Shown: positions 2,515-48,495 of the stretch, in pieces
Position numbering within the stretch: position 1 is the first letter of the stretch
How the letters are laid out: every line of letters starts with the position of its first letter
NCBI RefSeq assembly: GCF_040958095.1
Contig: NC_091198.1
Location: 31,876,830-31,940,829 of the forward strand
Direction of reading: 5' to 3'
From: Procambarus clarkii
Lineage: Eukaryota > Arthropoda > Malacostraca > Decapoda > Cambaridae
DNA: 64,000 bases
Notes under the pieces: model-generated
Seen by the model: the letters and a program-made list of their open reading frames with translations, nothing else
Told to the model about the DNA's origin: nothing
The model's database searches: none
Position numbers and translations under genes: made by a program

Positions 2515-4225
2515 CGGGGTCGCGGCACCTCACAGCGCCTTGGTCGAAGGGTCACATCACCTTATAATGCCTTGGTCGAGGGTCATGTCACCTCACAGTG
2601 TCTTGGTCGCGGGGTCATGTCACCTCACAGTGTCTTGGTCACAGGGTCACGTCGCCTCACAGTGTCTTGGTCGCTGGGTCACATCACCTCTGTGTCTTGG
2701 TCGCGGGGTCATGTCACCTCACAGTGTCTTGGTCACAGGGTCGCGTCACCTCACAGTGTCTTGGTCACAGGGTCACGTCACCTCACAGTGTCTTTGTCGC
2801 AGAGTCGCGTCACCTCACAGTGTCCTGGTCATGGGGTCGCGTCACCTCACATTGTCCTGGTCATGGGGTCACGTCACCTCACATTGTCCTGGTCATGGGG
2901 GTCACGTCACCTCACAGTGCCTTGGTCATGGGGTCGCGTCACCTCACAGTGCCTTGGTCATGGGGTCACGTCACCTCACATTGTCCTGGTCATGGGGGTC
3001 ACGTCACCTCACATTGTCCTGGTCATGGGGGTCACGTCACCTCACATTGTCCTGGTCATGGGGTCACGTCACCTCACATTGTCCTGGTCATGGGGGTCAC
3101 GTCACCTCACAGTGCCTTGGTCATGGGGTCGCGTCACCTCACAGTGCCTTGGTCATGGGGTCACGTCACCTCACATTGTCCTGGTCATGGGGGTCACGTC
3201 ACCTCACATTGTCCTGGTCATGGGGGTCACGTCACCTCACATTGTCCTGGTCATGGGGTCACGTCACCTCACATTGTCCTGGTCATGGGGGTCACGTCAC
3301 CTCACATTGTCCTGGTCATGGGGGTCACGTCACCTCACATTGTCCTGGTCATGGGGGTCACGTCACCTCACATTGTCCTGGTCATGGGGTCACGTCACCT
3401 CACATTGTCCTGGTCATGGGGTCACGTCACCTCACAGTATCTTGGTAGCATCACCTCACAGTGCCTAGGTCGTGGGCTGCATCACCTCACAGTGCCTAGG
3501 TCGTGGGTAGCGTCACCTCACAGTGCCTAGGTCGTGGGTAGCGTCACCTCACAGTGCCTAGGTCGTGGGTAGCGTCACCTCACAGTGCTTAGGTCGTGGG
3601 TTGCGTCACCTCACAGTGCCTAGGTCGTGGGTTGCATCACCTCACAGTGCCTAGGTCGTGGGTAGCGTCACCTCACAGTGCCTAGGTCGTGGGTAGCGTC
3701 ACCTCACAGTGCCTAGGTCGTGGGTAGCATCACCTCACAGTGCCTAGGTCGTGGGTAGCGTCACCTCACAGTGCCTAGGTCGTGGGTAGCGTCACCTCAC
3801 AGTGCCTAGGTCGTGGGTTGCATCACCTCACAGTGCCTAGGTCGTGGGTTGCATCACTTCACAGTGCCTAGGTCGTGGGTAGCGTCACCTCACAGTGCCT
3901 AGGTCGTGGGTTGCATCACCTCACAGTGCCTAGGTCGTGGGTAGCGTCACCTCACAGTGCCTAGGTCGTGGGCTGCATCACCTCACAGTGCCTAGGTCGT
4001 GGGTTGCATCACCTCACAGTGCCTAGGTCGTGGGTTGCATCACCTCACAGTGCCTAGGTCGTGGGTTGCATCACCTCACAGTGCCTAGGTCGTGGGTAGC
4101 GTCACCTCACAGTGACTAGGTCGTGGGCTGCATCACCTCACAGTGCCTAGGTCGTGGGTAGCGTCACCTCACAGTGCCTTGGTCGTGGGTAGCGTCACCT
4201 CACAGTGCCTTGGTATTGGGGTCAT
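2515..4225. repeat. 31-33-bp GC-rich minisatellite, about 53 copies in two subfamilies
   Basis: The array is built from units of the type CCTCACAnTGYCYWGGTCnTGG. From about 2.5 to 3.44 kb the units are mostly 32-33 bp and end in a GGGGTCACGTCA type (TCCTGGTCATGGGG). From about 3.44 to 4.22 kb they are a very uniform 31-bp type (GCCTAGGTCGTGGGTAGCGTCA). The first 400 bp are the most diverged, which suggests an array edge. Three overlapping plus-strand frames of more than 300 codons run through the 33-bp part only because that period is divisible by three; they are not genes. Confidence 0.93.
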
Positions 4226-4727: not shown

Positions 4728-5402
4728 GCCTGTAGAAATAGATCCCACCTGCTCATTATGGGGGACTTCAATCATGGAAGAATTGACTAGGAGAACAAGG
4801 AACCGCATGGAGGCAAGGATACATCTTGTATCCTCCCTGTCCTTCCCCCTTCGCTTGACCCCCCACCCCTCATCCCAATATTCTCTGCAACCCTGGTATC
4901 CACCTCACAAATCCTCACACCCATGGCACAGCTTCCTCCACCAGCAGAACATTCACCAAGGAGGAGATTTGAGGAGGGACAGAAGAAAGTGAGCTTCAAG
5001 GCAATGTACACTAACATAGACGGTATTACAAATAAAGCAAATGAACTTGGTGAATGGGTACTAGAGGAAAACCCAGACATAATAGCTCTCACAGAAACAA
5101 AGCTAACGAAAACAATAACAAATGCAGTGTTCCCACAGGACTATTATGTTATGAGGAAAGAGAGAGAAGGAAGAGGTGGGGGTGGTGTAGCTCTGCTGGT
5201 AAGAAAAGGCTTGGATTTCGAGGAGTTGGTTGTTCAGGGATGTGAAGGTTTCAGTGACTACATAATAGGAACAATAACAACTGGAGGGCAAAAAATTATA
5301 GTCGTAGTCATATATAATCCACCACCAAATGACAGAAGACCCAGACAGGAATATGATAGAAACAATATGGCCCTACATAGGTGGCTCTATCTGGCTCTGA
5401 AA
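4728..5402 (+). mobile_element. LINE endonuclease fragments (two pieces of an ORF2 APE domain)
   Basis: Around 4,740-4,785 the plus strand encodes HLLIMGDFNHGRIDW, the APE-type endonuclease motif MGDFN. Further downstream (4,996-5,402) a frame begins MYTNIDGITNKANELGEWV and continues with IIALTETKL and GGGGVALLVRKGL, which are the N-terminal APE blocks. The C-terminal motif therefore lies upstream of the N-terminal block, so these are two copies or a rearranged copy. The second piece stops at 5,405, before its own GDFN block. Both are dead fragments of a CR1/L2-type LINE. Confidence 0.7.
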
Positions 5403-13758: not shown

Positions 13759-13764
13759 AGGGTG
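13759..13764. repeat. Left target-site duplication AGGGTG
   Basis: Six bases directly outside the left end of the inverted repeat. They are identical to 27565-27570 outside the right end. Confidence 0.8.
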
Positions 13765-15684
13765 AGTAGTGTAAAAGGAGACACATGGGGAATTGATTTT
13801 CAGAAACGGTTGGGCACATCCATGCCGACTCGACCCTGGCGGGCGGATTCGACCAAAAACTTATTTTAGGTGGTTAGGTTAGGGCACAGTCAGCGCGCAC
13901 CTGGCTGGCTGGCGGGGGGTGGGGTGGTCCATTTCCCCCAGGGGTACCCAGGGCCCACCACCCAGGGTGTACCTGAGGAACTGGTGCCCTATCCTAACCT
14001 GTTTTTTCACTTTTTGTCTCTTTGCTTTAAGATGAGTCTAGGGCCTCAAGAAGGGGGTCTCTACTTATGAGAGGTACCGAGGATGAATGTTCAATAGTTG
14101 GAAACCAAAAAATACACTGGTGAAAGGCATATAAACGTTTTTGGAGTATTTTAATGGCATGAACAAAATTCACGATTTGGCCCGGGGGTGTTACGAGAGT
14201 ACTACGGTCTCAATTTGGGGGCCCTTACTTTTGAATGGATCAGAGGGTGAATGTTCAATAGATTCAAACCAAGAAACACAGTTGAAAGCGAATATAGAAG
14301 TTTTTGGAGTACTTTAATGAGGCTATGACTGAATAGTATAGGGAGCCCTTGGGCACAGCTCCATTTTCTGTAATGGTCAGAGGTGAGCAGTGAGAACGGG
14401 GCGCGATTTTTTTGACCAATCAGGAGCCGAGTAGAAAAATTCTCTTTCTGTCTCGGGGTCATGGGCCAATCAGGTGAAATTTTCCTTATTTGTCGCGGTG
14501 GTGTCACGTGACATGACGTCGGCAATAGGGACCCTCTACCTATGATTACCCCAGTGGGGGTCAAGCATACAAGGGGGGGTCAAGATTCCTTACAAAGACC
14601 AAGTTGGATATATAGGTGTAGTAAGCCTTATCTTGAATTTGCATGATACTGTGGGGTACATTGACATGAAGGGCGAGTCATAGAACAGGATCTGCATGTG
14701 AGATGGGTCATATTAGGGTTTTAAAGAAGTTAAGATAGCTTTAAAGAGTCCTGTGTGCTTGATAGTGGGGAAATGTTCAGTCAATAATTCTCGTGTTTTG
14801 AATCTGAATGAGGGGTCCTAGTTTGCGTTCTAGTCATAAAATGAGTTCCTTAGTATATTTGCTATGGAAAATGAGCTTTCAGTACTCTATATAATTTGAA
14901 ATGAGGTCAAGAAAGACATGTTTAAGTGCGAGAAGAGTCAGGTTGGAAACTGTTTATTCCAGTCATCCCCCCTTGGCTTTGCTCTGTTTTCTGTAGCTAA
15001 AGTAAAGATTCCATTTTCTGTGGCATTCAGTTGATTACTGGTGAAAAAGGCATGCTTGCCTTTGTATGGTTCTAACCTGTTTATAGATTTTATAGATATA
15101 TTTTTCCTGCCTCAAATTAGATTTTAATATGAAAAATAGCATCAAATGTATGTCTATCTTTTGTAATAAACGTTACAAGCATTAACAATACCTGTGATAT
15201 TTCATAGAATACAAAAAGAAGTTTAAATAGTGGGGCCTCAGCCATATTGTGTTGGGTTTGACACTCCAAACATTAATTTGACTCATAAATATACTATAAA
15301 GAAAAATAGTTGAATGGTTTAAGCAATTTAATACGTACTGGGAATCTGTTCGTATTCTGTATTAAATTGCATTTTTTAACATAATAGTTTGCAGCTATTG
15401 TGGTGCGGGCCCAATAACTTCATATAACGCATCGACTGGCACTATATGTTGCTATGATATGCTTTTTGAAATCATGTGTTAAAATTTAAAAGTCGACTCC
15501 ATCAGTTGCCATTTATGTCAGTGCCGTGGTATATCAAGCGCAAAGGTTTTCAGAAAATGTTACACCTCCACCTTTCAAAAAGTGAAAAGATGAATTCATT
15601 TTGGCATTACTGTCATTACTTTGGAAGTTTTTTAATGATAGCACCTGCTTAAACAAACTCCCTCGCAAAACACAACTCATTTTT

Positions 15685-15895
15685 TTTTTGTTTAACTTAC
15701 ACAAATAAGCCCAGGGCTTTCACATTCGCACAAAATACTTAGTCCCCCCTAAACTTAAAACAGTTGCACAATCTTAAACACATTGCTAAACTCTTATACA
15801 CAAACAAAAACTCAATTTTCAACTTACACAAATAAACACGGGCTTTGCACATTCACACAAAAAAATGCTTAGTCCCCCCTAGACTTGAACACTCA
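15685..15895. repeat. Direct repeat pair inside the left TIR
   Basis: A segment of about 70 bp with ACTTACACAAATAA, GGGCTTT and TTAGTCCCCCCTA occurs at about 15,695-15,765 and again at about 15,823-15,893. The mirror-image pair is in the right TIR near 25,435-25,650. Confidence 0.7.
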
Positions 15896-16599
15896 CAATC
15901 TTACGGTGCTTTAATTGTCAAAGCCTTCCAAACCTGCACTGGGTCCTGCCCAGCAGACTGCGGCTGGATGGGTTACAATTGAGCCAAAAACAGTTGGTCA
16001 GGGCGAGATACGGCCTCATTTTTAGAGACATTTACTATAGCAAAAGCTTGAACGTCGGGAACTGAATGCGGGTCTGCACGAGAGTTGTTCTTGGCATTCA
16101 AATGTTTAGAGATTAAAATACATAGAATCAGCAAGAGCCCACCCTCAGTTGCTCACGCGGTCAATAGACATGTTTTTCGCCCAACTGTATTTATTTAAAA
16201 TAATACGTCAGATAGAAAGAGTTTCGCATTGCTATTATATTTACCTTATAAAGCCTCTTTAGAAAAATGATATGCCACTGCGTATTATGATTGTTTTATA
16301 ATAAATATTGCATAAATACTTACACGATTTCATAAACAAAAAAAAAATTTAATGAGCCATGGTTGGAAGGCTTCATCATTACGATAAATACAAACTTTTA
16401 AAACTAATTAAAAATATATATCTCCTAGAGGAAGATTTATTCTTCAGGATATATATTATTTATAAATAAAGAGTTTCATTCTGTATAAAAAAAGTTGCCA
16501 ATATTTTCAAAACTCTGGCCACAAATTTTTTATAAAGGTTTTCCAAGGGAGTAAATCTTGCTTCCTCTCTTTCTCCCAAATGTTTCCTCATTTGCACAG

Positions 16600-17165
16600 G
16601 AGCAGAGCAACCTTCGTGCGGGCCCTGGTTCAGTTCCCCAACGTCCGAGCTAATGGACATTACAAATTTTACTAAATGATGCAGTATCTTAGCTGTCTCT
16701 CTAATTATAAAGGTGTTAATCTTTTTTTTTTAACCTTTGAGTGCTAGGTCTCAAAAAGGTTCTTTACCTCAGAGAGAGAGAGAGAGAGATTCTATTTTTG
16801 TCCATATTCAAGCGGAATGTTGAACAACCTTCGTGAGGGTCCTGGTTCAGTTCCCCAATGTCCGAGATATTGGACATTACAAATTTCACTAAATGATTCA
16901 TTATCTTAGCAGCCCCTCTAATTATAAAGTTGTTAATCTTTTTTATAACCTTTGAGTGCTAGTTCTCAAAAGGTTCTTTACCTGAGAAAGAGAGAGAGAG
17001 ATTCTATTTTTGTCCATATTCGAGCGGAATGTTGAGCAACCTTCGTGCAGGACCCGGTTCAGTTCCCCAACGTCCGAGCTATTGCACATAGCAAATTTCT
17101 CTAAATGAGGCAGTATCTCGCCCCCACCCCCCGGACCAACGATTTTAGGGCAGTAAATAAGCAAT
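16600..17165. repeat. Three tandem units of about 210 bp at the inner end of the left TIR
   Basis: The block GAGCAACCTTCGTGCGG with GGTTCAGTTCCCCAACGTCC and a following GGACATTACAAAT recurs starting near 16,614, 16,824 and 17,034. The unit also holds TGAGTGCTAG, GTTCTTTACCT and a GAGAGA run. The same three units appear inverted at about 24,163-24,730 in the right TIR. Confidence 0.85.
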
Positions 17166-17390
17166 TGCAATCCATCCAGCCGGCGACTTATCAGTGACTG
17201 TGGAAAGAATGTGTGTTCTTAGGACCATTATGGCCTCTTCGCGCATTTTCATTCCCTCACACATTTGAGTATTTGTTTCCCACATCAAGAATTTTGTCAA
17301 AAAAACGTTCAAGGAAATACGAGCTTATTTATTCCAACTTATAGATAAAAAACAAAAAAATAAACTGGCGACCCCTGGCAGCAAGTTCAG

Positions 17391-18230
17391 GAGGTCTCGG
17401 CCAATATCTGGCTGGGGGGTGTGGGGTTCTTAGTGAGATCATACGACCAAGCTGTGATGGAGACCATAAATGGTATGCATAAACCCTAATACTTTACAGG
17501 ACTTGTCATGGTTTGTGCCTCATTGATAATTCGTTCCAAGTAGTTAAAAGTTAAATCTAAAGAAATCCAATAAAGTTCAACGATTTTTTTTCTCTCTCTC
17601 TCTATGGGTGTATGCAATTAATTTTTTCTGTTATATCTTTTATCAGAGCTCGGCCATCAGGCTGTAGATGTTGTGGAAAAGAGGAAGATGCAATGCAGGG
17701 AATCGCCCCTGGTATTTATTTTACGAGGTCATTGCGTCGTGGAGTATGAGGAATTGCCCAAGTTCATCGCACGCGTCAAGGCTTTGGCGGCAATTGAAAA
17801 GCAGTATGAAGGCGCGGATTTAGAAGACTCACATGTTCAAAGACAGAAAACAAAAAAAATTAACGCCGTTGAGACTGTATATGGCGGTTTTTGTGACAAA
17901 ACAGAAATAAGACTACTTGTCGAAATAGGAATAGGCTTGATTAAAGTGGCGTATAATGGAATACCCAACTTTATCGAGTGGGTGCAAGCCCAAGGTGAAA
18001 TAGAAAAACAGTTTGCGGGGATTGATTTTAAACAGCGTGAAAACTGGTTTATTTATCATGACAAAGTTCGAGCGCAGAATGCATTTAGAGAAATTTTCTT
18101 TGGGGATTATGGGGATTATTGTTCCACCTCCGAAGCTGAGGAAATTGCGCCAGAGGATGAGGTTTATTGGAGGGAAAATTTGCATCCAGTCATTAAGGCA
18201 GATCTAGATAGAGCTCCACCCACAAGATAA
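17391..18230 (+). CDS. Unknown two-exon protein with an internal duplicated module
   Basis: The main exon is 17647-18230, preceded by a T-rich tract and ATCTTTTATCAG. An upstream exon at 17391-17472 (or from 17382), ending AAATG before GTATGC, joins it in phase: 82 nt leave one base and the next exon supplies two. Upstream exons and the start codon are not visible. The protein contains two related blocks about 100 residues apart: LPKFIARVKALAAIEKQYEG and IPNFIEWVQAQGEIEKQFAG, each followed by an acidic or aromatic stretch. There is no signal peptide or membrane segment. It ends ...DRAPPTR with TAA at 18228-18230, and a polyadenylation signal follows at 18394. I recognise no family. It lies inside the 13.8-kb element, convergent with the next gene. 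The frame is open for 195 codons in AT-rich DNA, which supports coding. Confidence 0.6.
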
Positions 18231-18393
18231 CTCTTAGGAACTAATGATGCAAAGGGGACATACTACAGGAACAATGTGCGGGTGGCCTGATGGGGGGGGG
18301 GGGATATCCCCAAATCCCGAGACTTTGTCCCCCAACCCAGACTCTGTTCAACCAGAACATTATTTTGTTTGTATATATATGTGTTTTTACCTA

Positions 18394-18399
18394 AATAAA
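18394..18399 (+). promoter_or_regulatory. Polyadenylation signal AATAAA of the unknown gene
   Basis: AATAAA lies 164 bp after the stop codon at 18230 and precedes an A-rich stretch. Confidence 0.55.
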
Positions 18400-18634
18400 A
18401 AAATCATGTATCATTATTATTATTATTATTGCACACTCCCCTTGAAGATGAAATATGTTAAAAAAAAATGTCAGGTAGTATTTGCTAGAGTACTTGTCAT
18501 GGAGGTGAATAAGTGATGAGGTCTCTCTCTTATTTTTAAAAACTACTTTAACAGATAAAAAAAAAAACTTGACATTTATACAATTTTTTATTTTATTATG
18601 AGTACATATACAAAAAAAAACAAGCACTTTTTTA

Positions 18635-18999
18635 TTATTCGTCGTTAGTGTAATAAGATCTAAGGTTCCTCCTTTTACTCGATGGTCTTTTCAGTACTTG
18701 TGGCGGTACTTGACCTTTCCCTGCTCCATCTTGTTTAGGACGCACCAGCAAAAATTCTTTTTTGCATTTTTTCATTACATGGGCCAAATGAGCCAGTGTA
18801 GGGTAGTAAGATGCCAGCCATTCTTCTTCTTCACCTGCTCTAGACCAACCCACCCCAGAATTGCAGCCTATACCAAATGGCATAACTATCCGTTTGATAG
18901 AATTATTACTCTTGGCTTCGCTCATAATGCGACTCACGGCCTTTTTAAAACACCATCGTCTGTTGATAGTTGTATCTCTCCGCAATCCCGCTACTAAAT
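18635..18999 (-). CDS. Macrodomain-like C-terminal fragment (possible ADP-ribose hydrolase)
   Basis: A minus-strand frame is open from about 18,999 to the TAA at 18635. It reads LVAGLRRDT, then SIKRIVMPFGIGCNSGVGW, then an acidic patch, a helix-like ASYYPTLAHLAHVMKKCKKE, and a basic tail. The order resembles the C-terminal half of TARG1/Poa1-type macrodomains: a VAxLxRD strand, then hydrophobic-P-x-GIGC-x-x-G-x-W. The usual GCG has become GCN. The N-terminal half with the ADP-ribose-binding loop is absent, because upstream sequence runs straight into Penelope-like DNA at about 19,005. The stop codon overlaps the AATAAA (18636-18631), a compact ending. The fragment converges on the unknown gene. 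Other Rossmann-like folds remain possible. Confidence 0.4.
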
Positions 19000-19007
19000 C
19001 AATATCT

Positions 19008-19640
19008 TTACTTTACTTTATATGGTAAACATAACACATTCTTTGGGCGAGTCCTTTCACTGCATACATTATTATAATATGTACGACGAGCTTTGTTACG
19101 ACAAACTTCCAAAAAATTCAGTGGGTAACAAAGCTTAAGACCAATCGAATCAATATTCTTAAATTCTTCATCTAAGAATTCTGGACTCACAACTCGAAGA
19201 GCTCTTAAATACATTGAAGAAAAAATTGACTTTTTTACATTGTATTTATGCCCTGAAAAATAATGAACATAAGATAAATTGTTCGTAGGTTTTCTGTAAA
19301 CACTAAACTTTAATGAAGAGTTTTCCCTATGAATAAGCACATCTAAGAATGGCAAACATTTATCAATTTCAGTCTCCATAGTAAATTTTATGGAGGTGAC
19401 TTGGTCATTAAGTTTGGCTACAAATTCGTCTGTGTTTACATCTGAAGGCCAAATACACAAGATATCATCAACATATCTAAACCAAGGAATGATTCCAGGA
19501 GTTATTTTTGAAACAAATTTCTTTTCAAAGAATTCCATGTACAGGTTTGAGAGCAATGGCGATAGAGGATTCCCCATTGCCATTCCAAAAGTCTGTAAAT
19601 AATACTCATTACTCACCAAATCACCAATCAAGCTCACCAA
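19008..19640 (-). mobile_element. Penelope-like element RT fragment
   Basis: The minus-strand frame of 211 codons contains FGMAMGNPLSPLLSNLYMEF (RT motif B region of Penelope-like elements), WFRYVDDILCIW (motif C with the YVDD catalytic pair) and INKCLPFLDV-type, SVYRKPTN and YVHYFSGH blocks typical of Penelope RTs. It lacks motif A and everything upstream, and ends ...VLCLPYKVK before the GIY-YIG endonuclease. At its N-terminal side it abuts an oppositely oriented Penelope fragment at about 19,650. It sits inside the 13.8-kb element, where it separates the macrodomain-like fragment from the IAP gene. Confidence 0.88.
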
Positions 19641-19670
19641 ATTGATTGGGAGAGTGCGTCTTCAATAACA

Positions 19671-19838
19671 AATTGTAAAAGCACCTATAACAGAAACATA
19701 ATTGAATCCGCTTTGATACAGATCACCAAAGAAAGTAATTTGAATATTAGCAGTGGTCTATATAACTTAGATCCATTTCTAATAGATCAGCTAAAGGGCG
19801 ATTTAAGTAGAATCATTGAAAAACATTTGTCTCACTAA
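19671..19838 (+). mobile_element. C-terminus of a Penelope-like ORF (plus strand)
   Basis: A 55-codon plus-strand stretch, with stop TAA at 19836-19838, reads RNIIESALIQITKESNLNIS, SGLYNLDPFLIDQL and a final IIEKHLSH. This is the sequence seen after the GIY-YIG domain in Penelope-like elements (ESALI...N.S.GLY.LD...). It is head-to-head with the minus-strand RT fragment, so two different insertions or a rearrangement are present. Confidence 0.65.
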
Positions 19839-20052
19839 TTTATTGTATATATTTACCTCTTTATGTTATAATTACCTATGCATTATGCTTGTATGTCTGC
19901 TGTATCAGATGGGCCATTGGGCTACATCGGATGGGCCAATTGGGTGCATCTGATGGGCCAATGGGCCTTCTGCGTTGTCCAAGTATTGTACCTCACCTTA
20001 CTTCACCACTCTCTCCTGCCTATTTATACCCATCACTCGATTTGTAAAATGA

Positions 20053-20091
20053 CCTTCTGAAGATGTATTTAATATACGAAAGTACTTAAGG
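20053..20091 (+). ncRNA. Hammerhead-ribozyme-like motif in the Penelope 3' region
   Basis: Read 5' to 3': CCTT (20053-20056), core CTGAAGA (20057-20063), one extra T, stem II GTAT/ATAC (20065-20068 with 20074-20077), GAAA (20078-20081), a self-complementary GTAC (20082-20085), TT, then AAGG (20088-20091) pairing with CCTT. This order is that of a type I hammerhead. Stem III has no loop, so cleavage would need a dimer, as proposed for minimal Penelope hammerheads. The extra T before stem II is not canonical. It lies 215 bp after the Penelope stop codon. Confidence 0.5.
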
Positions 20092-20163
20092 AAATTTCCT
20101 GTTTCATTTTTCCTCCGTGGTCTGACATTGTCACATTCTTAATCACGTGTTTATTTTCGTGAT

Positions 20164-20308
<145 letters not shown>

Positions 20309-20469
20309 TATATTTTGGTAGCAGTCTTTCCTGTAGGCATATATTATTAAATATGACCGAAAAAGTAAGATTAATAATTCTAACACGAATTTTCTCAATC
20401 TTTCGTACATTACGCTTCACTGTTGGAGGTAAATCAAAAATCAATTCTCCAAAATTCATTTTTATTTCT

Positions 20470-20522
20470 AGTCTGACGCGACACGGGCGCGTTTCGTAAA
20501 ACTTATTACATTTTCAAAGACT
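20470..20522 (-). ncRNA. Hammerhead-like motif, left palindrome arm
   Basis: Exact inverted copy of 21211-21263: stem I, core TTGAAAA, stem II, GAAA, stem III CGCG/CGCG and TC are all retained. Confidence 0.5.
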
Positions 20523-21210
20523 TTAGTTCACAAATACACAACTGAATAGAACTTACGTATCTCCGATTTTATATCTACATTTGAGTGAGGTGGAAGGGGT
20601 GATGTGGCATTAACACAAGACAGAACAAAATGTGGTATTAATAGGGTATTAATTTCATCAACACAAGACAGAACAAGAGTATTAATAGGGTATTAATTTC
20701 ATCAACACAAGACAGAACACGAAGCAATGGATATTGAATAGAAGTGTTTGTAGAAAGCCTATTGGTCCATATTTCTTGATGCTTCTATATTGGAGCGGAG
20801 TCTTGAGGTGGGTAGAATATAGTTGTGATATAACTATATTCTGATATATATAAGTTGTGATATAACTATAGTTGTGATATAACTATATTATATGTGATAT
20901 AACTACACAACTATATTCTACCCACCTCAAGACTCCACTCCAATATAGAAGCATCAAGAAAAATGGACCAATAGGCTTTCTACAAACACTTCTATTCAAT
21001 ATCCATTGCTTCGTGTTCTGTCTTGTGTTGATGAAATTAATACCCTATTAATACTCTTGTTCTGTCTTGTGTTGATGAAATTAATACCCTATTAATACCA
21101 CATTTTGTTCTGTCTTGTGTTAATGCCACATCACCCCTTCCACCTCACTCAAATGTAGATATAAAATCGGAGATACGTAAGTTCTATTCAGTTGTGTATT
21201 TGTGAACTAA

Positions 21211-21263
21211 AGTCTTTGAAAATGTAATAAGTTTTACGAAACGCGCCCGTGTCGCGTCAGACT
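21211..21263 (+). ncRNA. Hammerhead-like motif, right palindrome arm
   Basis: In order: AGTCT (21211-21215), core TTGAAAA (21216-21222), an extra T, stem II GTAA/TTAC (21224-21227 with 21234-21237), GAAA (21238-21241), stem III CGCG/CGCG with a 7-base loop (21242-21256), TC (21257-21258), and AGACT (21259-21263) pairing perfectly with AGTCT. The layout is a type I hammerhead, but the canonical core CTGANGA is replaced at C3 (T) and G8 (A), two positions that pair with each other in the folded ribozyme. Activity is unknown. Confidence 0.5.
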
Positions 21264-21384
21264 AGAAATAAAAATGAATTTTGGAGAATTGATTTTTGAT
21301 TTACCTCCAACAGTGAAGCGTAATGTACGAAAGATTGAGAAAATTCGTGTTAGAATTATTAATCTTACTTTTTCGGTCATATTT

Positions 21385-21890
<506 letters not shown>

Positions 21891-21897
21891 ATATATA
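21891..21897 (+). promoter_or_regulatory. TATA box of the IAP gene
   Basis: ATATATA lies 51 bp before the ATG at 21942. A start of transcription about 30 bp downstream would fall near CCAGTG at 21921, leaving a short leader. Position and fit are good but the motif is short. Confidence 0.5.
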
Positions 21898-21941
21898 GCC
21901 TAGGATCTTGCCTCCATTCGCCAGTGTCGCACCAGTACACA

Positions 21942-22997
21942 ATGGAACCTTCCCGTACTAAAACGTTTTACTCCAGGGACAGTCTTAAATGTGCCCAAAT
22001 GCGTTTAGACACCTTTATAAATTGGCCTGTCGAGTGGCTAAACCCCCTAGACCTGGTGAATGAGGGATTTTATTATCTGAGAGTTGCGGATCATTGTTCC
22101 TGCGCCTTTTGTTGTAAAGTTGTGCATGCTTGGATTGAGGGCGATACGCCCCGTAGTAGGCATGCGTAAGTGTCGCCAAATTGTTCCTTCATAAGAGGCG
22201 AAAAGGACAATAACGTTCCTTTGGAAATCACCAAACTGGCATTCGAATATGGGCTGGATTTCTTTTCACCCCTATTCGAACCAAAGAATATAGCAACATC
22301 TGATCGTGAGTATATTGTATAAATATAATTTACTAGTTTATCTGTGAATAATTAGTATTGGCGATGTGGAGGGAGGACAAAAATAAGTATAAACGCAGGA
22401 AGTCTTTTCAAATAATTTTTCTTTATTTTTTGTTGCTTTTGAAAGAATTGACTTAGAACCTGTGTCTTATGCATATATGTGATGGAGCATCTTTGTTTTT
22501 TTAGAGACCCCACCCCGCGAGGAAGAAACTAAAATGACTGGAGATGATTTGCAGGTTCTGGGGGTAATTCCATACGCTAAACCTAGATATCCAGGCTTGG
22601 CAACATACAAACAGCGTTTGGAAACATTCGACCTCAGCTGGACTGGTTGTGTCAAGCAAACATCTCACGAATTGGCAGAATCAGGATTTTTCTTCTGTGG
22701 TAAACAAATATTGTTGGAGTTTTTGTTATTTTTAGTGTGTGTGTATCCTCCTGGCCGGGGAGGATTTACTGGGCGCAAATCCTTAACTGTAGCCTCTGAT
22801 TAACTCAACAGTAAAATGGGTACTTGGTTGTAAAAACGATTCTTCGAGGTGGGGATTGTATTCTAGGGACCTGCCCGAAATGCTAGGCCGTACAAGAATG
22901 TAACAACTCTTGTATATATCTAAAAAAAAAGTGTGTTTACTCCCCTAATTGTGCTTGCGGGGGGGGGGGGGTAGAGCTCTGGCTCTTTGGTCCCGGG

Positions 22998-23054
<57 letters not shown>

Positions 23055-24007
23055 CGTGTGTGTGTTTTGTATTACAACATTGCCGGATGTGAGCTATAAT
23101 AATAATAATGAATGGGAATATTTTTTTTCTTAAATTTACAGGCCTAAGTGACCACATGCGCTGCTTTTTCTGTGGAAATGGTTTTCGTAATTGGGAACCC
23201 GCGGACGACCCTTGGACACTGCACGCGCAATGGTATCCTGAGTGCACCTTTGTCAACATTAAAAAGGATGCACAGTTCATTAAGAATGCTAGAGAATCTT
23301 CGCAGCGTCGAACTATAAAACCCATAGATGAACATCTTTTAACTGGTCTGATGGAAGGTTTGGGTTTTTTCCCAGCATTAATTGAACATTTTGGATTTCC
23401 TGATGTCTGTGTGAGACCTGCCTTAAGGCAATATCTCAAAAGCACCAAAGATTTATTACCGTTTGTTACAGAGGCCAGATGTATAGAATTAATGTTGTGG
23501 TATATGCAAGAGAGCACTAAAGCCGAAATGGGTTTAAGGGGAATTCATCATGAGGATGTGGAAGGTAGGGTAGAGCCTGAGAATCTGGAATGGCAATCCG
23601 CGCCCTCTGACATGGAAACAGTCGCCACAGCTAATGAAATGGATGTCGACGTTGTTGGATCAATGAGCGGGTTCATGAGCACTAATCTTGGTTTGCGGGC
23701 TATGCCTTCTCCTGTTGAAACAGAGGCGGAAGAGACGACTATAGTCGCTAATGAAATGGATGTTGAAACTGGCGAAGAGGCCACAGACTTTGATGCGACA
23801 TCCCATGTTGAAACTGTGATGAACACATCTACGCCAACGTCTTGGGCTGCTGATATTTTGTGTAAGGTGTGCTTTAACAATGCGTTGAGTGTCGTACTGC
23901 TGCCCTGCAGACATATGGTAACATGCAGTAATTGTCTTGTATCTATGAGAAACTGCCCCATTTGCAGATGCACCATTTCGCATGTCCTTCAACTGATTAT
24001 TTCCTAA
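21942..24007 (+). CDS. Inhibitor-of-apoptosis gene, BIR-BIR-RING, three exons, one in-frame stop in BIR1
   Basis: Exons 21942-22305, 22505-22699 and 23142-24007 join in phase (364+195+866 nt = 475 codons with stop). Donors are C|GTGAGT and G|GTAAAC; acceptors are TTTTTTTAG and AAATTTACAG. BIR1 (residues about 16-84) has C-x2-C-x16-H-x6-C spacing; BIR2 (about 140-215) has the same spacing (CFFCGNGF...H...C) and is split by intron 2. The C-terminal RING (about 424-474) has C-x2-C-x11-C-x-H-x3-C-x2-C-x6-C-x2-C, the C3HC4 pattern of IAP E3 ubiquitin ligases. An acidic linker with repeated NEMDV blocks joins BIR2 and RING. IAPs bind caspases or IAP-antagonist peptides through BIRs and ubiquitinate partners in the cytoplasm. 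The oddity is TAA at 22167-22169 between the His and last Cys of BIR1; the frame stays open beyond it with the Cys in place. Could be a pseudogene, a readthrough codon or an assembly error. Confidence 0.9.
22999..23053. repeat. (TG)n microsatellite in IAP intron 2
   Basis: A TG dinucleotide run inside intron 2 (22700-23141). A G11-12 tract precedes it at about 22,960. Confidence 0.95.
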
Positions 24008-24045
24008 GAAGACAAAAAAGGCATAGAGACTAATTTATTTATGTA

Positions 24046-24051
24046 AATAAA
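24046..24051 (+). promoter_or_regulatory. Polyadenylation signal of the IAP gene
   Basis: AATAAA 39 bp after the stop codon, about 105 bp before the right inverted repeat begins. Confidence 0.7.
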
Positions 24052-24155
24052 AATTATACAAATGTCGAGTTGTTTTTTTATATTCATAAATTAGTATAAA
24101 TAAGCTCACATTTTCATGAACAGTATTTTTTTTTTTTTTGGGGGGGGAAGGATTA

Positions 24156-27100
24156 GATTGCAATTGCTTATTTACTGCCCTAAAATCGTTGGTCCGGGGG
24201 GTGGGGGCGAGATACTGCCTCATTTAGAGAAATTTGCTATGTGTAATAGCTCGGACGTTGAGGAACTGAACCGGGTCCTGCACGAAGGTTGCTCAACATT
24301 CCGCTCGAATATGGACAAAAATAGAATCTCTCTCTCTCTTTCTGAGGTAAAGAACCTTTTGAGAACTAGCACTCAAAGGTTATAAAAAGATTAACAACTT
24401 TATAATTAGAGGGGCTGCTAAGATAATGAATCATTTAGTGAAATTTGTAATGTCCAATATCTCGGACATTGGGGAACTGAACCAGGACCCTCACGAAGGT
24501 TGTTCAACATTCCGCTTGAATATGGACAAAAATAGAATCTCTCTCTCTCTCTCTGAGGTAAAGAACCTTTTTGAGACCTAGCACTCAAAGGTTAAAAAAA
24601 AAAGATTAACACCTTTATAATTAGAGAGACAGCTAAGATACTGCATCATTTAGTAAAATTTGTAATGTCCATTAGCTCGGACGTTGGGGAACTGAACCAG
24701 GGCCCGCACGAAGGTTGCTCTGCTCCTGTGCAAATGAGGAAACATTTGGGAGAAAGAGAGGAAGCAAGATTTACTCCCTTGGAAAACCTTTATAAAAAAT
24801 TTGTGGCCAGAGTTTTGAAAATATTGGCAACTTTTTTTATACAGAATGAACTCATATTTAATAAATAATATATATCCTGAAGAATAAATCTTCCTCTATG
24901 AGATATATATTTTTAATTAGTTTTAAAAGTTTGTATTTATCGTAATGATGAAGCCTTCCAACCATGGCTCATTAAATTTTTTTTTTGTTTATGAAATCGT
25001 GTAAGTATTTATGCAATATTTATTATAAAACAATCATAATACGCAGTGGCATATCATTTTTATAAAGAGGCTTTATAAGGTAAATATAATAGCAATGCGA
25101 AACTCTTTCTATCTGACGTAATATTTTGAATAAATACAGTTGGGCGAAAAACATGTCTATTGCCCGCGTGAGCGACTGGGGGTGGGCTCTTGCTGATTCT
25201 ATGTATTTTAATCTCTAAACATTTGAATGCCAAGAACAACTCTCGTGCAGGCCCGCATTCAGTTCCCGACGTTCAAGCTTTTGCTATAGTAAATGTCTCT
25301 AAAAATGAGGCCGTATCTCGCCCTGACCAACTGTTTTTGGCTCAATTGTAACCCATCCAGCCGCAGTCTGCTGGGCAGGACCCAGTGCAGGTTTGGAAGG
25401 CTTTGGCAATTAAAGCACCGTATGATTGTGAGTGTTCAAGTCTAGGGGGGACTAAGCATTTTTTTGTGTGAATGTGCAAAGCCCGTGTTTATTTGTGTAA
25501 GTTAAAAATTGAGTTTTTGTTTGTGTATAAGAGTTTAGCAATGTGTTTAAGTAAGATTGTGCAACTGTTTTAAGTTTAGGGGGGACTAAGTATTTTGCAC
25601 GAATGTGAAAGCCCTGGGTTTATTTGTGTAAGTTAAAAAAAAAATGAGTTTGTTTTTGCGAGGGAGTTTGTTTAAGCATGTGCTATCATTAAAAAACTTC
25701 CAAAGTAATGACAGTAATGCCAAAATGAATTCATCTTTTCACTTTTTGAAAGGTGGAGGTGTAACATTTTCTGAAAACCTTTGCGCTTGATATACCACGG
25801 CACTGACATAAATGGCAACTGATGGAGTCGACTTCTAAATTTTAACACATGATTTCAAAAAGCATTTCATTGCAACATACAGTGCCTGTCGATGCGTTAT
25901 ATGAAGTTATTGGGCCCCCACCACAATAGCTGCAAACTATTATGATGTTAAAAAATACAATTTAATACAGTATGCGAACAGATTCCCAGTACGTATTAAA
26001 TTGCTTAAACCACTCAACTACTTTCCTTTATAGTATATTTACAAGTGTCAAATTAATGTTTGGAGTGTCAAACCCAACACAATATGGCTGAGGCCCCACT
26101 ATTTAAACTTCTTTTCGTATTCTATGAAATATCACAGGTATTGTTAATGCTTGTAACGTTTATTACAAAAGATAGGCATACATTTGATGCTATTTTTCAT
26201 ATTAAAATCTAATTTGAGGCCCGAAAAATATATCTATAAAATCTATAAACAGGTTAGAACCATACAAAGGCAAGCATGCCTTTTTCACCAGTAATCAACG
26301 GAATGCCACAGAAAATGGAATCTTTACTTTAGCTACAGAAAACGGAGCAAAGCCAAGGGGGGATGACTGGAATAAACAGTTTCCAACCTGACTCTTCTCG
26401 CACATAAACATGTCTTTCTTGACCTCATTTCAAATTATATAGAGTACTGAAAGCTCATTTTCCATAGCAAATATACTAAGGAACTCATTTTACGACTAGA
26501 ACGCAAACTAGGACCCCTCATTCAGATTCAAAACACGAGAATTATTGACTGAACATTTCCCCACTATCAAGCACACAGGACTCTTTAAAGCTATCTTAAC
26601 TTCTTTAAAACCCTAATATGACCCATCTCACATGCAGATCCTGTTCTATGACTCGCCCTTCATGTCAATGTACCCCACAGAATCATGCAAATTCAAGATA
26701 AGGCTTACTACACCTATATATCCAACTTGGTCTTTGTAAGGAATCTTGACCCCCCCTTGTATGCTTGACCCCCACTGGGGTAATCATAGGTAGAGGGTCC
26801 CTATTGCCGACGTCATGTCACATGACACCACCGCGACAAATAAGGAAAATTTCACCTGATTGGCCCATGACCCCGAGACAGAAAGAGAATTTTTCTACTC
26901 GGCTCCTGATTGGTCAAAAAAATCGCGCCCCGTTCTCACCGCTCACCTCTGACCATTACAGAAAATGGAGCTGTGCCCAAGGGCTCCCTATACTATTCAG
27001 TCATAGCCTCATTAAAGTACTCCAAAAACTTCTATATTCGCTTTCAACTGTGTTTCTTGGTTTGAATCTATTGAACATTCACCCTCTGATCCATTCAAAA

Positions 27101-27564
27101 GTAAGGGCCCCCAAATTGAGACCGTAGTACTCTCGTAACACTCCCGGGCCAAATCGTGAATTTTGCTCATGCCATTAAAATACTCCAAAAACGTTTATAT
27201 GCCTTTCACCAGTGTATTTTTTGGTTTCCAACTATTGAACATTCATCCTCGGTACCTCTCATAAGTAGAGACCCCCTTCTTGAGGCCCTAGACTCATCTT
27301 AAAGCAAAGAGACAAAAAGTGAAAAAACAGGTTAGGATAGGGCACCAGTTCCTCAGGTACACCCTGGGTGGTGGGCCCTGGGTACCCCTGGGGGGAATGG
27401 ACCACCCCACCCCCCGCCAGCCAGCCAGGTGCGCGCTGACTGTGCCCTAACCTAACCACCTAAAATAAGTTTTTGGTCGAATCCGCCCGCCAGGGTCGAG
27501 TCGGCATGGAAGTGCCCAACCGTTTCTGAAAATCAATTCCCCATGTGTCTCCTTTTACACTACT
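24156..27564. repeat. Right terminal inverted repeat (about 3,409 bp)
   Basis: Inverted copy of 13765-17172, beginning GATTGCAATTGC at 24156 and ending ACACTACT at 27564. It contains the mirrored three 210-bp units (24,163-24,730) and the mirrored GTCCCCCC direct repeat pair. Small indels and substitutions relative to the left copy are scattered along the length. Confidence 0.93.
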
Positions 27565-27570
27565 AGGGTG
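27565..27570. repeat. Right target-site duplication AGGGTG
   Basis: Identical to 13759-13764. It lies directly outside the right inverted repeat. Confidence 0.8.
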
Positions 27571-33640: not shown

Positions 33641-34321
33641 GTGGTGAGGACTGTGTGGTGGTGGTGGGGCTGTGTGGTGGTGGTGGGGACCATGTGGTGG
33701 TAGGGACTGTGTGTGGTGGTAGGGACTGTGTGGTGGTGGTGGGGGCTATGTGGTGGTAGGGACTGTGCGTTGGTGGGGGCTGTGTGGTGGTGGGGACTGT
33801 GTGTTGGTGGGGGCTGTGTGGTGGTAGGGTCTGTGTGTTGGTGGGGGCTGTGTGGGGGTAAGGACTGTATGTTGGTGGGGGCTGTGTTGCAAATAGGAAC
33901 TATGTCTTGGTGGGGGTTGTGTGAGGGTAATGTCTGTGTGTTAGTGGTGGTAATGACTGTGTGTTGGTGGGGACTGTGTGGTGGTAGGGTCTGTGTGTTG
34001 GTGGGGGATGTGGTGGTAATGAATGTGTGTTGATGGGGGCTGTGTTGCAGTAGGAACTATGTGTTGGTGGGGGCTGTGTGGTGGAAATGACTGTGTGTTG
34101 GTGGGGGTTGTGTGAGGGTAATGTCTGTGTGTTAGTGGGGGCTGAGTGGTGGTAATGACTGTGTGTTGGTGGGGGCTGTGTGGTTGTAATGATTGTGTGC
34201 TGGTGGGGGCTGTGTGGTGGTAGGGACTGTGTGTTAGTAGGGGATGAGTGGTGATAATGACTGTGTGGTGGTGGGGGCTGTATGGTGGTAATGACTGTGT
34301 TGTGTTGGGGGCTGTATAGTG

Positions 34322-34632
34322 TTTACTAGTTGTGTTTACTAGTTGTGTTTTTGCGGGGGTTGAGCTTTGCTCTTTCGGCCCGCCTCTCAACTGTCAATCA
34401 ACTGTTTACTAACTACTTTTTTTTTTTTTTCCCCACACCACACACACACCCCAGGAAGCAGCCCGTGACAGCTGACTAACTCCCAGGTACCTATTTACTG
34501 CTAGGTAACAGGGGCATTCAGGGTGAAAGAAACTTTGCCCATTTGTTTCTGCCTCGTGCGGGAATCGAACCCGCGCCACAGAATTACGAGTCCCTGCGCG
34601 CTATCCACCAGGCTACGAGGGCCCCCCTCGTA
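34322..34632 (-). mobile_element. tRNA-Thr-derived SINE, copy 1
   Basis: On the minus strand the head at 34622-34551 is tRNA-like: acceptor GCCTCGT/ACGAGGC, A-box TAGCCTGGTGG, anticodon stem CAGGA/TTCTG around loop CTCGTAA (anticodon CGU, Thr) and B-box GGTTCGATTCC. One extra G disturbs the anticodon arm of this copy. The body follows with CCTGTTACCTAGCAGTAAAT and a T/A-rich tract. The tail has two ACAACTAGTAAAC units at 34,322-34,350. ATAGTGT is present on both sides (near 34,316 and 34,635) and may be the target duplication. Confidence 0.85.
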
Positions 34633-36283
34633 GATAGTGTATGGATAGTGGTAATGACTGTGTGGTGGTGGTTGTGGGGGCTGAATGGTGGAAATGACTG
34701 TATGGTGGTGGGGGCTGTATGGGGGTAATAAATGTGTGTTGGTGGGGGCTGTGTGGTGAAAATGACTGTGTGTTAATGGGGGCTGTGTGGTGGTAATGAC
34801 TGTGTGGTGGTAATGACTGTGTGTTGGTGGGGGCTGTGTGGTGGTAGGGACTGTATGTTAGTGGGGGATGAGTGGTGGTAATGACTGTGTGGTGGTGGGG
34901 GCTGTATGGTGGTAATGACTGTGTGGTGAGGGGGCTGTATATTGGTAATGACTGTGTGGTGGTGGGGGGCTGTATAGTGGTAATGATTGTGTGGTGGGAA
35001 AGGGCTGAATGGTGGTTTTGACTGTGTGGTGGTGGGGTCTGTATGGTGGTAACGATTGTGTGGTGGTGGGGCTGTATAGTGGTAATGACTGTGTGGTGGT
35101 GGGGGCTGAATGGTGGTAATGACTGTGTGGGGGTAGGGGCTGTATAGTGGTAATGACTGTGTGGTGGTGGGGGGCTGTACAGTGGTAATGACTGCGAGGT
35201 GGTGGGGGCTGTATAGTGGTATTGACTGTGTGGTGGTGGGGGCTGTATGGTGGTAACGATTGTGTGGTGGTGGGGCTGTATAGTGGTAATGACTGTGTGG
35301 TGGTGGGGGCTGAATGGTGGTAATGACTGTGTGGGGGTAGGGGCTGTATAGTGGTAATGACTGTGTGGTGGTGGGGGGCTGTACAGTGGTAATGACTGTG
35401 AGGTGGTGGGGGCTGTATAGTGGTAATGACTGTGTGGTGGTGGGGGGTTGTATAGTGGTAATGACTGTGTGGTGGTGGGGGCTGTATAGTGGTAATGACT
35501 GTGTGGTGGTGGGGGCTGTATAGTGGTAATGACTGTGTGGTGGTGGGGGCTGTACGGTGGTAATGACCGTTTGGGGGTAGGGGCTGTATAGTGGTAATGA
35601 CTGTTTGGGGGTGGGGGCTGTATGGTGGTAATGACTGTGTGGTGGTGGGGGGCTGTATGGTGGTAATGACTGTGTAGTGGTGGTGGCTGTATGGTGGTAA
35701 TGACTGTGTGATGGTTGGGGGCTGAATGGAGGTAAGGACTGTGTGATGGAGGGGAGTTGAATGGTGGAAATGATTGTGTGGTGGGGGGCTGAATGGTGGT
35801 AATGACTATGTTGTGTTGGGGGTTCAATAGTGGTAATGACTGTGTGGGGGTGGTAGCTGAAATGTGGTAATGAATGTGTGGTGGGTGCTGCATGGTGGTA
35901 ATGACTGTGTCGTGGTGGGGAGCTGATTAATGGTAATGACTGTGTAGTTATGGGAGCTGAATGGTGGTAATGACTGTGTGGTGGTGGGGGCTGAATGGTG
36001 GTAATGACTGTGTGGTGGTGGAGGGCTGTATAGTGATAATGACTGTACTGGTGGGGGCTGAATGGTGGTAATGACTGTTTGGTGGGAAATGGCTGAAAGG
36101 TGGTTTTGACTGTGTGGTGGTGGTGGGCTGTATGGTGATATCGACTGTGTGGTGGTGGGGGCTGTATAGTGGTAATGACTGTGTGGTGGTGGGGGCTGAA
36201 TGGTGGTAATGACTGTGTGGTGGTGGAGGGCGGTATAGTGATAATGACTGTGTGGTGGTGAGGGCTGAATGGTGGTAATGACT

Positions 36284-36575
36284 GTGTTTACTAGTTGTGT
36301 TTTTGCGGGGGTTGAGCTTTGCTCTTTCGGCCCGTCTCTCAACTGTCAATCAACTGTTTACTAACTACTTTTTTTTTTCACCACACACACACACCCCAGG
36401 AGGCAGCCTGTGACAGCTGACTAACTCCCAGGTAACTATTTACTGCTAGGTAACAGGGGCACTTAGGGTGAAAGAAACTTTGCCCATTTGTTTCTGCCTC
36501 GTGCGGGAATCGAACCCGCGACACAGAATTACGAGTCCTGCGCGCTATCCACCAGGCTACGAGGCCCCCTCGTAG
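36284..36575 (-). mobile_element. tRNA-Thr-derived SINE, copy 2
   Basis: Same family and orientation as copy 1. The tRNA-like head is 36565-36496 with an intact 7-bp acceptor stem and CGU anticodon. The tail has a single ACAACTAGTAAAC unit. The two copies are about 2 kb apart and nearly identical, differing by a few bases. Confidence 0.85.
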
Positions 36576-36582
36576 TGGGGGG

Positions 36583-36628
36583 CTATACAGCCCCCTACCC
36601 CCACTGTGTGGGGGTAGGGGCTGTATAG
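36583..36628. repeat. Foldback hairpin next to SINE copy 2
   Basis: CTATACAGCCCC...CCCCCAC is followed after TGT by its inverted copy GTGGGGGTAGGGGCTGTATAG, with one extra C in the first arm. It is made of minisatellite sequence turned on itself at the SINE junction. Confidence 0.85.
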
Positions 36629-37567
36629 TGGTAATGACTGTGTGGTGGTGGGAGCTGTATGGTGGTAATGACTGTATGGTGATGGGGGCTGTATATTGGT
36701 AATGACTGGCGTGATGGTGTGGGGCTGAATGGTGGTAATGACTGTGTGATGGAGGGGAGTTGAATGGTGGAAATGGTTGTGTGGTGGTGGTGGCTGAATT
36801 GTGGTATTGACTGTGTGATGGTGGGGGATGAATAATGGTAATGACTGTGTGGTGGTGGTGGCTGAATTGTGGTAATGAATGTGTGGTGGCTGCTGCATGG
36901 TGGTAATGACTGTGTCGTGGTGCAGAACTGAATAGTGGTAATAACTGTGTAGTTATGAGAGCTGAATGGTGGTTATGATTGTGTGGTGTTGGGGGCTGAT
37001 TGGTGGTAATGACTATGTGGTGGTGGGGGGCTGAATGGTGGTAATGCTTGTGTGGTGGTGGGTGCTGTATGGGGGTAATGTCTCTGTGATGGTGGTGGCT
37101 GAATTGTGGCAACGAGTGTGTGGTGGTGGTAGGGGGCTGAATGGTGGTAATGACTGTGTGGAGGTGGAGGCTGTATGGTGGTAATGAGTGTCTGGTGGTG
37201 GTGGGGGGCTGTATAGTGGTAATGACTGTGTGATGGTGGGGACTTGAATGGTGGTAATTACTATGTGGTGGGGGGCTGTATAGTGGTAATGACTGTGTGG
37301 TGGTGGGGGCTGTATGGTGGTAACGATTGTGTGGTGGTGGGGGGATGAATGGTTATAATGAATGTGTGGTGGTGGGAGCTGAATGGCGGTAATAACTGTG
37401 TGGTGGTGGGGGCTATATGGTGGTAATGACTGTGTAGTGGTGGGGGGCCTGAATGGTGGTAATGACTGTGTTGTGGGGGGATGAATGGTGGTAATGACTG
37501 TGTAGTGGTGGTGTTTGAATAGTGGTAATGACTGTGTGGTGGTGGTGGCTGAAATGTGGTAATGAAT

Positions 37568-38602
37568 TGTTACGGACCCGAGTCCAGCGTCGTAGCACGG
37601 AGCTGTGACGACCACGCCATCTGTGGGTCAGCTCCCGAAACCCCCTCCAAATGGACGATGCCATCTAGTGAGGACGAGATATACCGGCCAAAGGGGCTGG
37701 TTTCCCGTCTTGTTCAGCTCGTAACGTAGCCGCTTCTGACCTCTGGTGAAGTGACGCTTAGACAGCAACGTCATCTGTGGAGTGGATAGGTGGGCGTTTG
37801 TGTCTAAGCCTGATAGTGAGGTGCCCTAGGGTGTCCCTAGTACTGATGACGTGTCTGATTACAGAGTCGACCTGGGACTGCTGTAATGGACGGTTGGGCA
37901 GTCTATCCAAAGCAGCCATAGTATCTGCACGTGTTTGCTGCAGAAGCTGTGAGTCACCCCCCCCCCCCCCCCCGAATGAACACTATTGTGTTAGCCTGCC
38001 TGTGAGGTGGCAGAACCAGGGATTATCGTACCCGGGGCTGACTGGTGGAGAAGACTAGCCACTGGGGTGTTGTGGTGAGGAGAGTGATCTGTGGAATCAC
38101 ACGAGGCTCCTGCCTAGGGCTCGCAACCCTAGTATCGGTCGTGGAATGGCCTACGCAGCGTAGCTGATTGGAACCTGCCAGCTACAGGCTGGATTTGTGG
38201 TTGAAGGCCTCCACGACGGTGCACCCAGTGAGACTGTGATTTGGCTGGCCTGTGGCCAGGGTAGACTCGTCTAGAAAATCTGAGGATTCATCGTGAGGCC
38301 ACGAGAAGAGGACCAGGGCTTCTCATCGTGAGCACCGTGGAGCATCCCGTGTCTTTGGAGGAAGACGAGTTATTGTAAATAAGAAGTGTAGTAATAGCAA
38401 CCCCGCGGGTGACTGTTTATATATTTATTTATGGAGGTGGTGTAATAATATAGTGAAACCAGTGCAATTGTATCCCTTCCCCTTTAATTTACTTGCGTTA
38501 CGGAACACACCCCTTGAAAGCCACTACTAACTTGGGGCCGGATACCCAAACTCTAATAACATCAGAGAAAGAACCCAGTTGCTACCCAATAGGGCCGTAA
38601 CA
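37568..38602. mobile_element. Solo LTR, 1,035 bp, with 5-bp target duplication
   Basis: The segment begins TGTTACGG and ends CCGTAACA, perfect 8-bp inverted ends of the TG...CA type. TGAAT precedes it at 37563-37567 and follows at 38603-38607. Removing one TGAAT and the LTR restores a normal minisatellite unit (GGTAATGAATGTGTTG). This is the mark of a Gypsy/BEL-like retrovirus-type element reduced by LTR-LTR recombination. Inside are a C17 tract at 37957-37973 and a TATA-like TTTATATATTTAT near 38,416. No coding sequence is present; short frames are chance. Confidence 0.93.
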
Positions 38603-41600: not shown

Positions 41601-41711
41601 TGGAGGGCTGTATAGTGGTAATAACTTTCTAGTGATGGGGGCTATATGGTTGTAACGATTGTGTGGTGATGCGGGCTGAATTATGGTAATGACTGGGTGG
41701 TGGTGGGCGGG

Positions 41712-48446: not shown

Positions 48447-48495
48447 TTTCATTACTTGGCCCAATTTCGAGGCTCAGGCCTCGAAATTGGGATGT
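48447..48495. repeat. Inverted junction at the edge of the satellite
   Basis: CCCAATTTCGAGG at 48460-48472 and CCTCGAAATTGGG at 48479-48491 are perfect inverted copies separated by CTCAGG. A partial monomer (GCCGCTTTCATTACTTGG) precedes them in plus orientation, so the array begins with a small foldback. Confidence 0.85.

Follow-up and report, generated by a model that had tools for sequence, protein, structure and literature searches.

The DNA stretch considered here, 64,000 nucleotides of the genome of the crayfish Procambarus clarkii (RefSeq assembly GCF_040958095.1, contig NC_091198.1, positions 31,876,830 to 31,940,829 of the forward strand; referred to in its entirety as the window), contains a 13,800-bp element, located at positions 13765..27564, that carries a gene for an inhibitor of apoptosis (IAP) between long terminal inverted repeats (TIRs). 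Judging from its sequence, this element is probably of the non-autonomous Polinton/Maverick type and was mobilized in trans, with the IAP gene as cargo. The evidence comes primarily from the element's ends, the target-site duplication (TSD) that flanks them, and a family of closely similar IAP genes elsewhere in the crayfish sequences.

Element boundaries and family assignment

The element is delimited by AGTAGTGTAAAA on the left and TTTTACACTACT on the right, i.e., by termini of the AGTAGT//ACTACT form, and is flanked by two copies of AGGGTG (13759..13764 and 27565..27570, both read directly from the sequence); the span 13759-27570 takes in both copies of this perfect 6-bp duplication. The left TIR (13765..17172, forward strand, 3408 bp) begins with AGTAGTG, and the right TIR (24156..27564, reverse strand, 3409 bp) ends with ACACTACT. 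In the arm-to-arm alignment, 3346 of the 3400 aligned positions are the same (98.4% identity), the differences being 54 substitutions (29 of them transitions) and 17 gap columns in 7 runs. The similarity stops at the duplication on the outside and near positions 17172 and 24156 on the inside. An earlier sequence-only reading of this DNA had described inverted repeats of about 3.4 kb starting at AGTAGTG and the AGGGTG duplication on both sides, and both descriptions hold at these coordinates. The 14 AGTAGT and 18 ACTACT sites of the window form 184 ordered pairs in which AGTAGT comes first, and identical flanking 6-mers are found in a single one of them, the pair that constitutes the ends of the element. 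A comparison of the element with the rest of the window, with low-complexity filtering on, revealed no similarity at an E value of 1e-3. Positions 13765-27564 very likely represent a real transposition unit.

Identity between the two arms is distributed unevenly. All 14 full 100-column blocks between 13798 and 15197 are 97 to 100% identical, five of the six blocks that follow, up to 15788, are 91 to 95% identical (the remaining one is 100% identical), the blocks beyond 15788 are in the range of 94 to 100%, and the block straddling the inner end is at 89%. A foldback-like subelement of 1,222 bp (15961..17182) with 21-bp inverted ends (CGGCTGGATGG...) makes up the innermost part of the left TIR. 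It is also present in the right arm, where the match is lost approximately 10 bases short of the block's end. The presence of this block in both arms, with the shortfall on the right, suggests a nested insertion, transferred between the arms by copying, as the source of some of their length; the missing 10 or so bases of the right TIR are a possible trace of such copying.

According to the accessible part of a survey of vertebrate Mavericks (PMC8097293), intact elements are 12.7 to 24.6 kb long, have TIRs of 46 to 1,447 bp and 6-bp TSDs, and show (AGT)2//(ACT)2 as the commonest terminal motif, with (AG)3//(CT)3 as another. The combination of a 6-bp TSD (AGGGTG), AGTAGT...ACTACT ends, and TIRs in the crayfish element matches this published signature, which supports the earlier proposal of an integrase-type insertion with Maverick-like ends; the complete (AGT)2//(ACT)2 motif is a stronger clue than the 5'-AG on which that proposal was based. 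In the available portion of PMC10045372, a TSD of 6 bp is given as typical of Polinton, as opposed to 4 bp for Ginger1 and 4 or 5 bp for Ginger2, values that the 6-bp TSD found here does not fit.

The search for Maverick genes consisted of six-frame Pfam scans at E values of up to 1, which covered the left arm and the whole interior (13765-24182); the right arm, a near-copy of the left one, was not scanned separately, and matches above an E value of about 0.1 are mostly discarded by the HMMER filters. Within this region, the scans detected no retroviral-type integrase (rve) and no protein-primed family B DNA polymerase (PolB), ATPase, protease, or capsid, and the only matches were to BIR, RING, and RVT_1, plus a non-significant one to B12D (E value of 0.22). 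The sequence-only reading had likewise seen no replication or structural genes, and these scans, with no recognizable Maverick gene among their matches, agree with it. Its further idea that the element exchanged structural and polymerase genes for host-interaction cargo is an inference. Since the core genes went undetected, the element can be claimed for the Mavericks as a non-autonomous relative at most, and it is likely to be of this non-autonomous type. Compared with the vertebrate elements in the accessible part of PMC8097293, it has in common the 6-bp TSD, the (AGT)2//(ACT)2 ends, the inverted repeats, and a similar overall size, but differs in the length of its TIRs (3.4 kb, compared to no more than 1,447 bp), in the core genes, none of which were found here, and in its intron-bearing IAP cargo.

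The IAP gene and its copies in the crayfish

The IAP gene, already recognized in the sequence-only reading, is a real one, as indicated by its BIR and RING profiles, zinc ligands, and GT..AG introns. Its three exons, all on the forward strand, encode BIR1 (exon 1, 21942..22305), the first half of BIR2 (exon 2, 22505..22699, with GT..AG introns on both sides), and the second half of BIR2 followed by a linker and the RING (exon 3, 23142..24007). On the same strand, direct reading reveals a TATATA (21892..21897) 50 bases ahead of the exon 1 ATG and an AATAAA (24046..24051) past the stop codon. BIR2 and RING are complete, with the C..C, H, and C ligands of the BIR domain and a C3HC4-type RING. The zinc ligands of BIR1 are also present, yet an in-frame TAA (22167-22169) falls between the last two of them, and this copy is probably partly decayed. 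The GTAAGT at position 22166 was considered as an alternative donor site of exon 1 and rejected, as splicing from it would be out of phase with exon 2 and would delete the last zinc ligand of BIR1. A short upstream exon encoding MEATSLLE (21550..21574, forward strand), whose end is placed at the GAAG/GTTTGT donor, precedes exon 2 by 0.95 kb and is included in the gene models of three other IAP copies, P0005 to P0007. The introns suggest that the gene was captured from a host at the DNA level.

A search with exon 3 identified 8 proteins at E values of up to 1e-3 among 458 candidates, all 8 of them from P. clarkii and located on 7 different contigs. Seven are clear copies (on six contigs, one of which is probably this locus), and the eighth, P0008, with 82% identity over 13% of the query, is a partial relative only. 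Over exons 2 and 3, P0004 has no aligned residue that differs from the window; its model begins within exon 2 and lacks a 38-residue block, and it is probably the annotation of this very locus. The near-copies P0001/P0002, P0003, P0005, P0006, and P0007, on five other contigs, show 2 to 9 residue differences in the aligned part of exon 3; this count excludes the tail of P0003, whose sequence diverges at the RING. The proteins annotated as ‘BIRC8-like’ IAPs of P. clarkii (P0001, P0002, and P0004) have the same BIR2 and RING and the same exon 2/3 joints as the gene in the element, with about 98 to 100% identity over the aligned exon 3 residues; their models are without BIR1, whereas the locus in the element has a BIR1 exon containing a stop.

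The MEATSLLE exon in P0005 to P0007, together with the tail of P0005, which by eye resembles the frame from 23970 onward, indicates that the repeated block exceeds the coding exons. Based on these protein models and the by-eye comparison, a block that includes the IAP gene and is no shorter than about 2.5 kb appears to be repeated in the genome, being shared at least with P0005, and its spread may have been the work of this element. In four of the P. clarkii IAP models, P0003, P0006, P0007, and P0008, the IAP exons are continued by downstream sequence unrelated to them, and chimeric models are therefore probable in the gene set.

A search with the BIR2 region yielded 7 matches among 10 candidates, again all from P. 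clarkii, although this type of search needs shared exact words and distant IAPs could escape it. Compared with PDB sequences, P0001 had 84 distinct matches at E values of up to 1e-5, with BIRC1, BIRC2, XIAP, and ‘Apoptosis 1 inhibitor’ among the matches listed. In viral contigs, a collection from which records of the genome of the window itself or of very near genomes may be excluded, IAP exon 3 gave 3 pattern matches, none of them confirmed, and the first 24 bases of the TIR gave no matches.

Competing explanations and a possible mode of spread

Several observations weigh against the assignment of this element to IAP-carrying, non-autonomous Mavericks. Its TIRs exceed the 46-to-1,447-bp range of the intact vertebrate elements (accessible part of PMC8097293), the six-frame scans of 13765-24182 found no remnant of any Maverick gene, and the putative family call relies on the long TIRs, the 12 bases at the termini, and the 6 bases of the duplication. 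The accessible part of PMC13130569 names no Maverick reads for P. clarkii itself; in favor of the assignment, it reports Maverick as 0.01% of the reads in Faxonius immunis, a crayfish that it assigns to the family of P. clarkii, and the same share in Cambaroides japonicus. The RING is kept in the models of only three of the seven clear IAP copies (P0001, P0002, and P0004) and is missing from those of P0003 and P0005 to P0007. P0001 and P0005 comprise 36 and 12 member sequences, respectively, with one contig listed for each, and such counts, which may also reflect isoforms, alleles, or local duplicates, are not in themselves a sign of transposition. None of the strings tested from the upstream exons of P0001/P0002 occurs in the window, and the contigs with IAP copies may come from more than one assembly.

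The alternative that survives best, albeit as an unlikely one, is that an autonomous-type Maverick has decayed at this site by internal deletion, the IAP gene being its ordinary accessory cargo, and that intact copies with polymerase, integrase, capsid, and the same IAP gene exist elsewhere. Such an origin is consistent with the Maverick ends of the element and with the accessible part of PMC8097293, where vertebrate Mavericks have accessory regions with diverse open reading frames (ORFs) and where the 12.7-to-24.6-kb size range accommodates 13.8 kb. Against it, the six frames of 13765-24182 contain no core-gene remnants, and a weak further point is that the downstream sequence fused in models P0003, P0006, P0007, and P0008 contains no Maverick domain, a result that bears little either way.

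An origin of the inverted repeats in a different DDE superfamily that also makes a 6-bp TSD, such as IS3EU/GingerRoot or an undescribed one, is very unlikely. In the available portion of PMC10045372, the TSD is usually 6 bp for IS3EU and also 6 bp for GingerRoot, as it is here, but the ends of these elements are TA..TA, occasionally TG..CA in the case of GingerRoot, whereas the crayfish element ends in AG..CT (AGTAGT..ACTACT). No more credible is the idea that an ordinary host IAP gene became enclosed by a local inverted duplication and that the 6-bp match arose by chance: the TIR examined is this one copy, and the 36 and 12 member sequences on one contig each are what local duplication would give, but the exact ends at a recognized motif coincide with a duplication seen in just one of the 184 ordered pairs, and clear IAP copies are found on six contigs. 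The least probable origin is a fragment of an endogenous nimavirus, a relative of white spot syndrome virus (WSSV), with a captured IAP gene: in the accessible parts of the respective papers, the genomes of majaniviruses from penaeid shrimp include BIR genes and further host-like ones, in some cases with introns (PMC10871703), and IAPs occur in shrimp repeats (PMC4506587), but the element is a complete 13.8-kb unit with TIRs and TSD, its six-frame matches in Pfam, whose coverage of nimavirus genes was left unchecked, comprise BIR, RING, RVT_1, and one non-significant match, and the nimaviruses of PMC10871703 target telomere repeats, 28S ribosomal DNA, or (AT)n, with clear inverted repeats (46 bp) unique to the sesarmid ones.

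If the element is indeed a non-autonomous Maverick relative, a Maverick-type DDE integrase acting in trans would have joined the observed AGTAGT/ACTACT ends to a 6-bp staggered cut, the source of the observed duplication. This integrase, and perhaps a polymerase, would be supplied by an autonomous Maverick located elsewhere and acting on the ends of the element, with the long TIRs carrying whatever the Maverick machinery recognizes. The 98.4% identity of the TIRs may have been maintained by replication or conversion. The Maverick core genes would have disappeared from the interior or would never have been part of it, and the interior would hold instead an intron-bearing host-type IAP gene and a second small protein (the left ORF described below), both expressed from their own promoters. 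The likely benefit would be the suppression of apoptosis by BIR2-RING in the cells where the element moves or is copied, and it is plausible that the element helped spread the crayfish IAP expansion.

A bolder version of this scheme, possible but doubtful, makes the element a satellite of Mavericks, depending on its helper like a plasmid or a virophage. Reduced to two host-interaction genes and the ends recognized by the integrase and polymerase of the helper, it would deliver an apoptosis inhibitor to any cell in which the helper operates. The crayfish ‘BIRC8-like’ family would be its product, and the annotated host IAPs would be selfish-element cargo. Confirmation of the element as a carrier of IAP genes would mean that IAPs counted among the immune and cell death genes of crayfish are transposon cargo and that intron-bearing apoptosis inhibitors move through decapod genomes by a second route besides the nimaviruses, and it would provide a natural case for examining whether a transposon that is unable to move itself gains fitness from an anti-apoptotic gene.

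In the open-licence literature searched, no paper was found in which ‘polinton’ or ‘maverick’ appeared together with ‘IAP repeat’. Mavericks of Caenorhabditis carry cargo genes, of other kinds than the IAP gene seen here. The accessible part of a 2015 study (PMC4506587) reports that IAPs in shrimp repeats are not always linked to WSSV-like genes. The majaniviruses and other endogenous nimaviruses, as described in the accessible part of PMC10871703, are likewise decapod mobile DNA with BIR genes of the host type, and introns occur in part of their host-like genes, but these are large viruses that use tyrosine recombinases or Ginger2-like integrases and insert into other targets, and no nimavirus gene was detected in the element by the six-frame Pfam scans. 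The giant Gypsy elements called Burro, from planarians, also combine a transposon with a BIR domain; according to the available text of PMC6431247, they differ in being long terminal repeat retrotransposons with the BIR domain inside a polyprotein.

Other contents of the element and of the window

Of the three spliced or compact genes that the sequence-only reading had placed in the interior, the three-exon IAP gene and a small ORF stand, whereas the third is a reverse transcriptase fragment (RVT_1, 19008..19661, reverse strand). Scanned on its own, this fragment scores 30.7 bits, above the Pfam cut-off of 29.6 bits, and in the six-frame scan it falls under that cut-off, at 27.3 bits; in NCBIfam, it matches several reverse transcriptases, all far below their cut-offs. 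By eye, its motifs suggest the Penelope type. A palindrome of approximately 1.05 kb (20344..21389, 96.8% self-complementary) sits between the (TA)n tracts 20176-20305 and 21389-21545. The fragment and the palindrome are both probably nested insertions.

The small, or left, ORF (17688..18230, forward strand) encodes 180 amino acids. Its frame is open from 17622, and a splice-acceptor-like pyrimidine-rich tract that ends in AG at 17646 lies upstream, so it is perhaps a 3' exon. The ORF has one database relative, P0009, which is 97% identical over 81% of a 202-residue query. The first residue is M in P0009 and V in the window, a difference that was set aside, since gene callers of the prokaryotic kind render a GTG start as M. 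The protein contains two diverged internal repeats (alignment score of 81, compared to a shuffle mean of 23.7, with 0 of 1000 shuffles scoring as high). It had no Pfam or NCBIfam match at E values of up to 0.1 and no PDB match at E values of up to 5, and its single PHROGs match was non-significant (E value of 0.087). The structure model, built from 2 sequences, is all helical and, with a mean predicted local distance difference test (pLDDT) score of 44.4 and a predicted template modeling (pTM) score of 0.37, too weak to judge the fold. When P0009 was compared with viral contigs, again a collection from which records of the window's own or very near genomes may be excluded, it gave 6 pattern matches, none of them confirmed. 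The suggestion that the element also carries an ADP-ribose-processing protein, for which a macro, Nudix, ARH, or similar domain in the left ORF would speak, found no support: the sole NAD-related match, to NAD_binding_10, was non-significant (E value of 0.083; 13.2 bits versus a cut-off of 27.2 bits) and belongs to another ORF, located at 18638-19012 on the reverse strand. The left ORF encodes a small protein of unknown family, and nothing found points to ADP-ribose chemistry.

Outside the element, the last 15.5 kb of the window (48456-64000) are filled by a tandem array of units of about 168 bp. Two tRNA-Thr (CGT) genes were identified by ARAGORN at 34550-34621 and 36495-36565, of which only the second is kept at the Rfam gathering threshold; both are inside a GTGGTGG-type minisatellite region (33641-41707), as if they had been co-amplified with it. 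On the other side of the element, there is a 31-bp minisatellite of about 54 copies (2501-4214), followed by a fragment, recognized by eye at about 5004-5340, with the endonuclease motifs of a long interspersed nuclear element (LINE).

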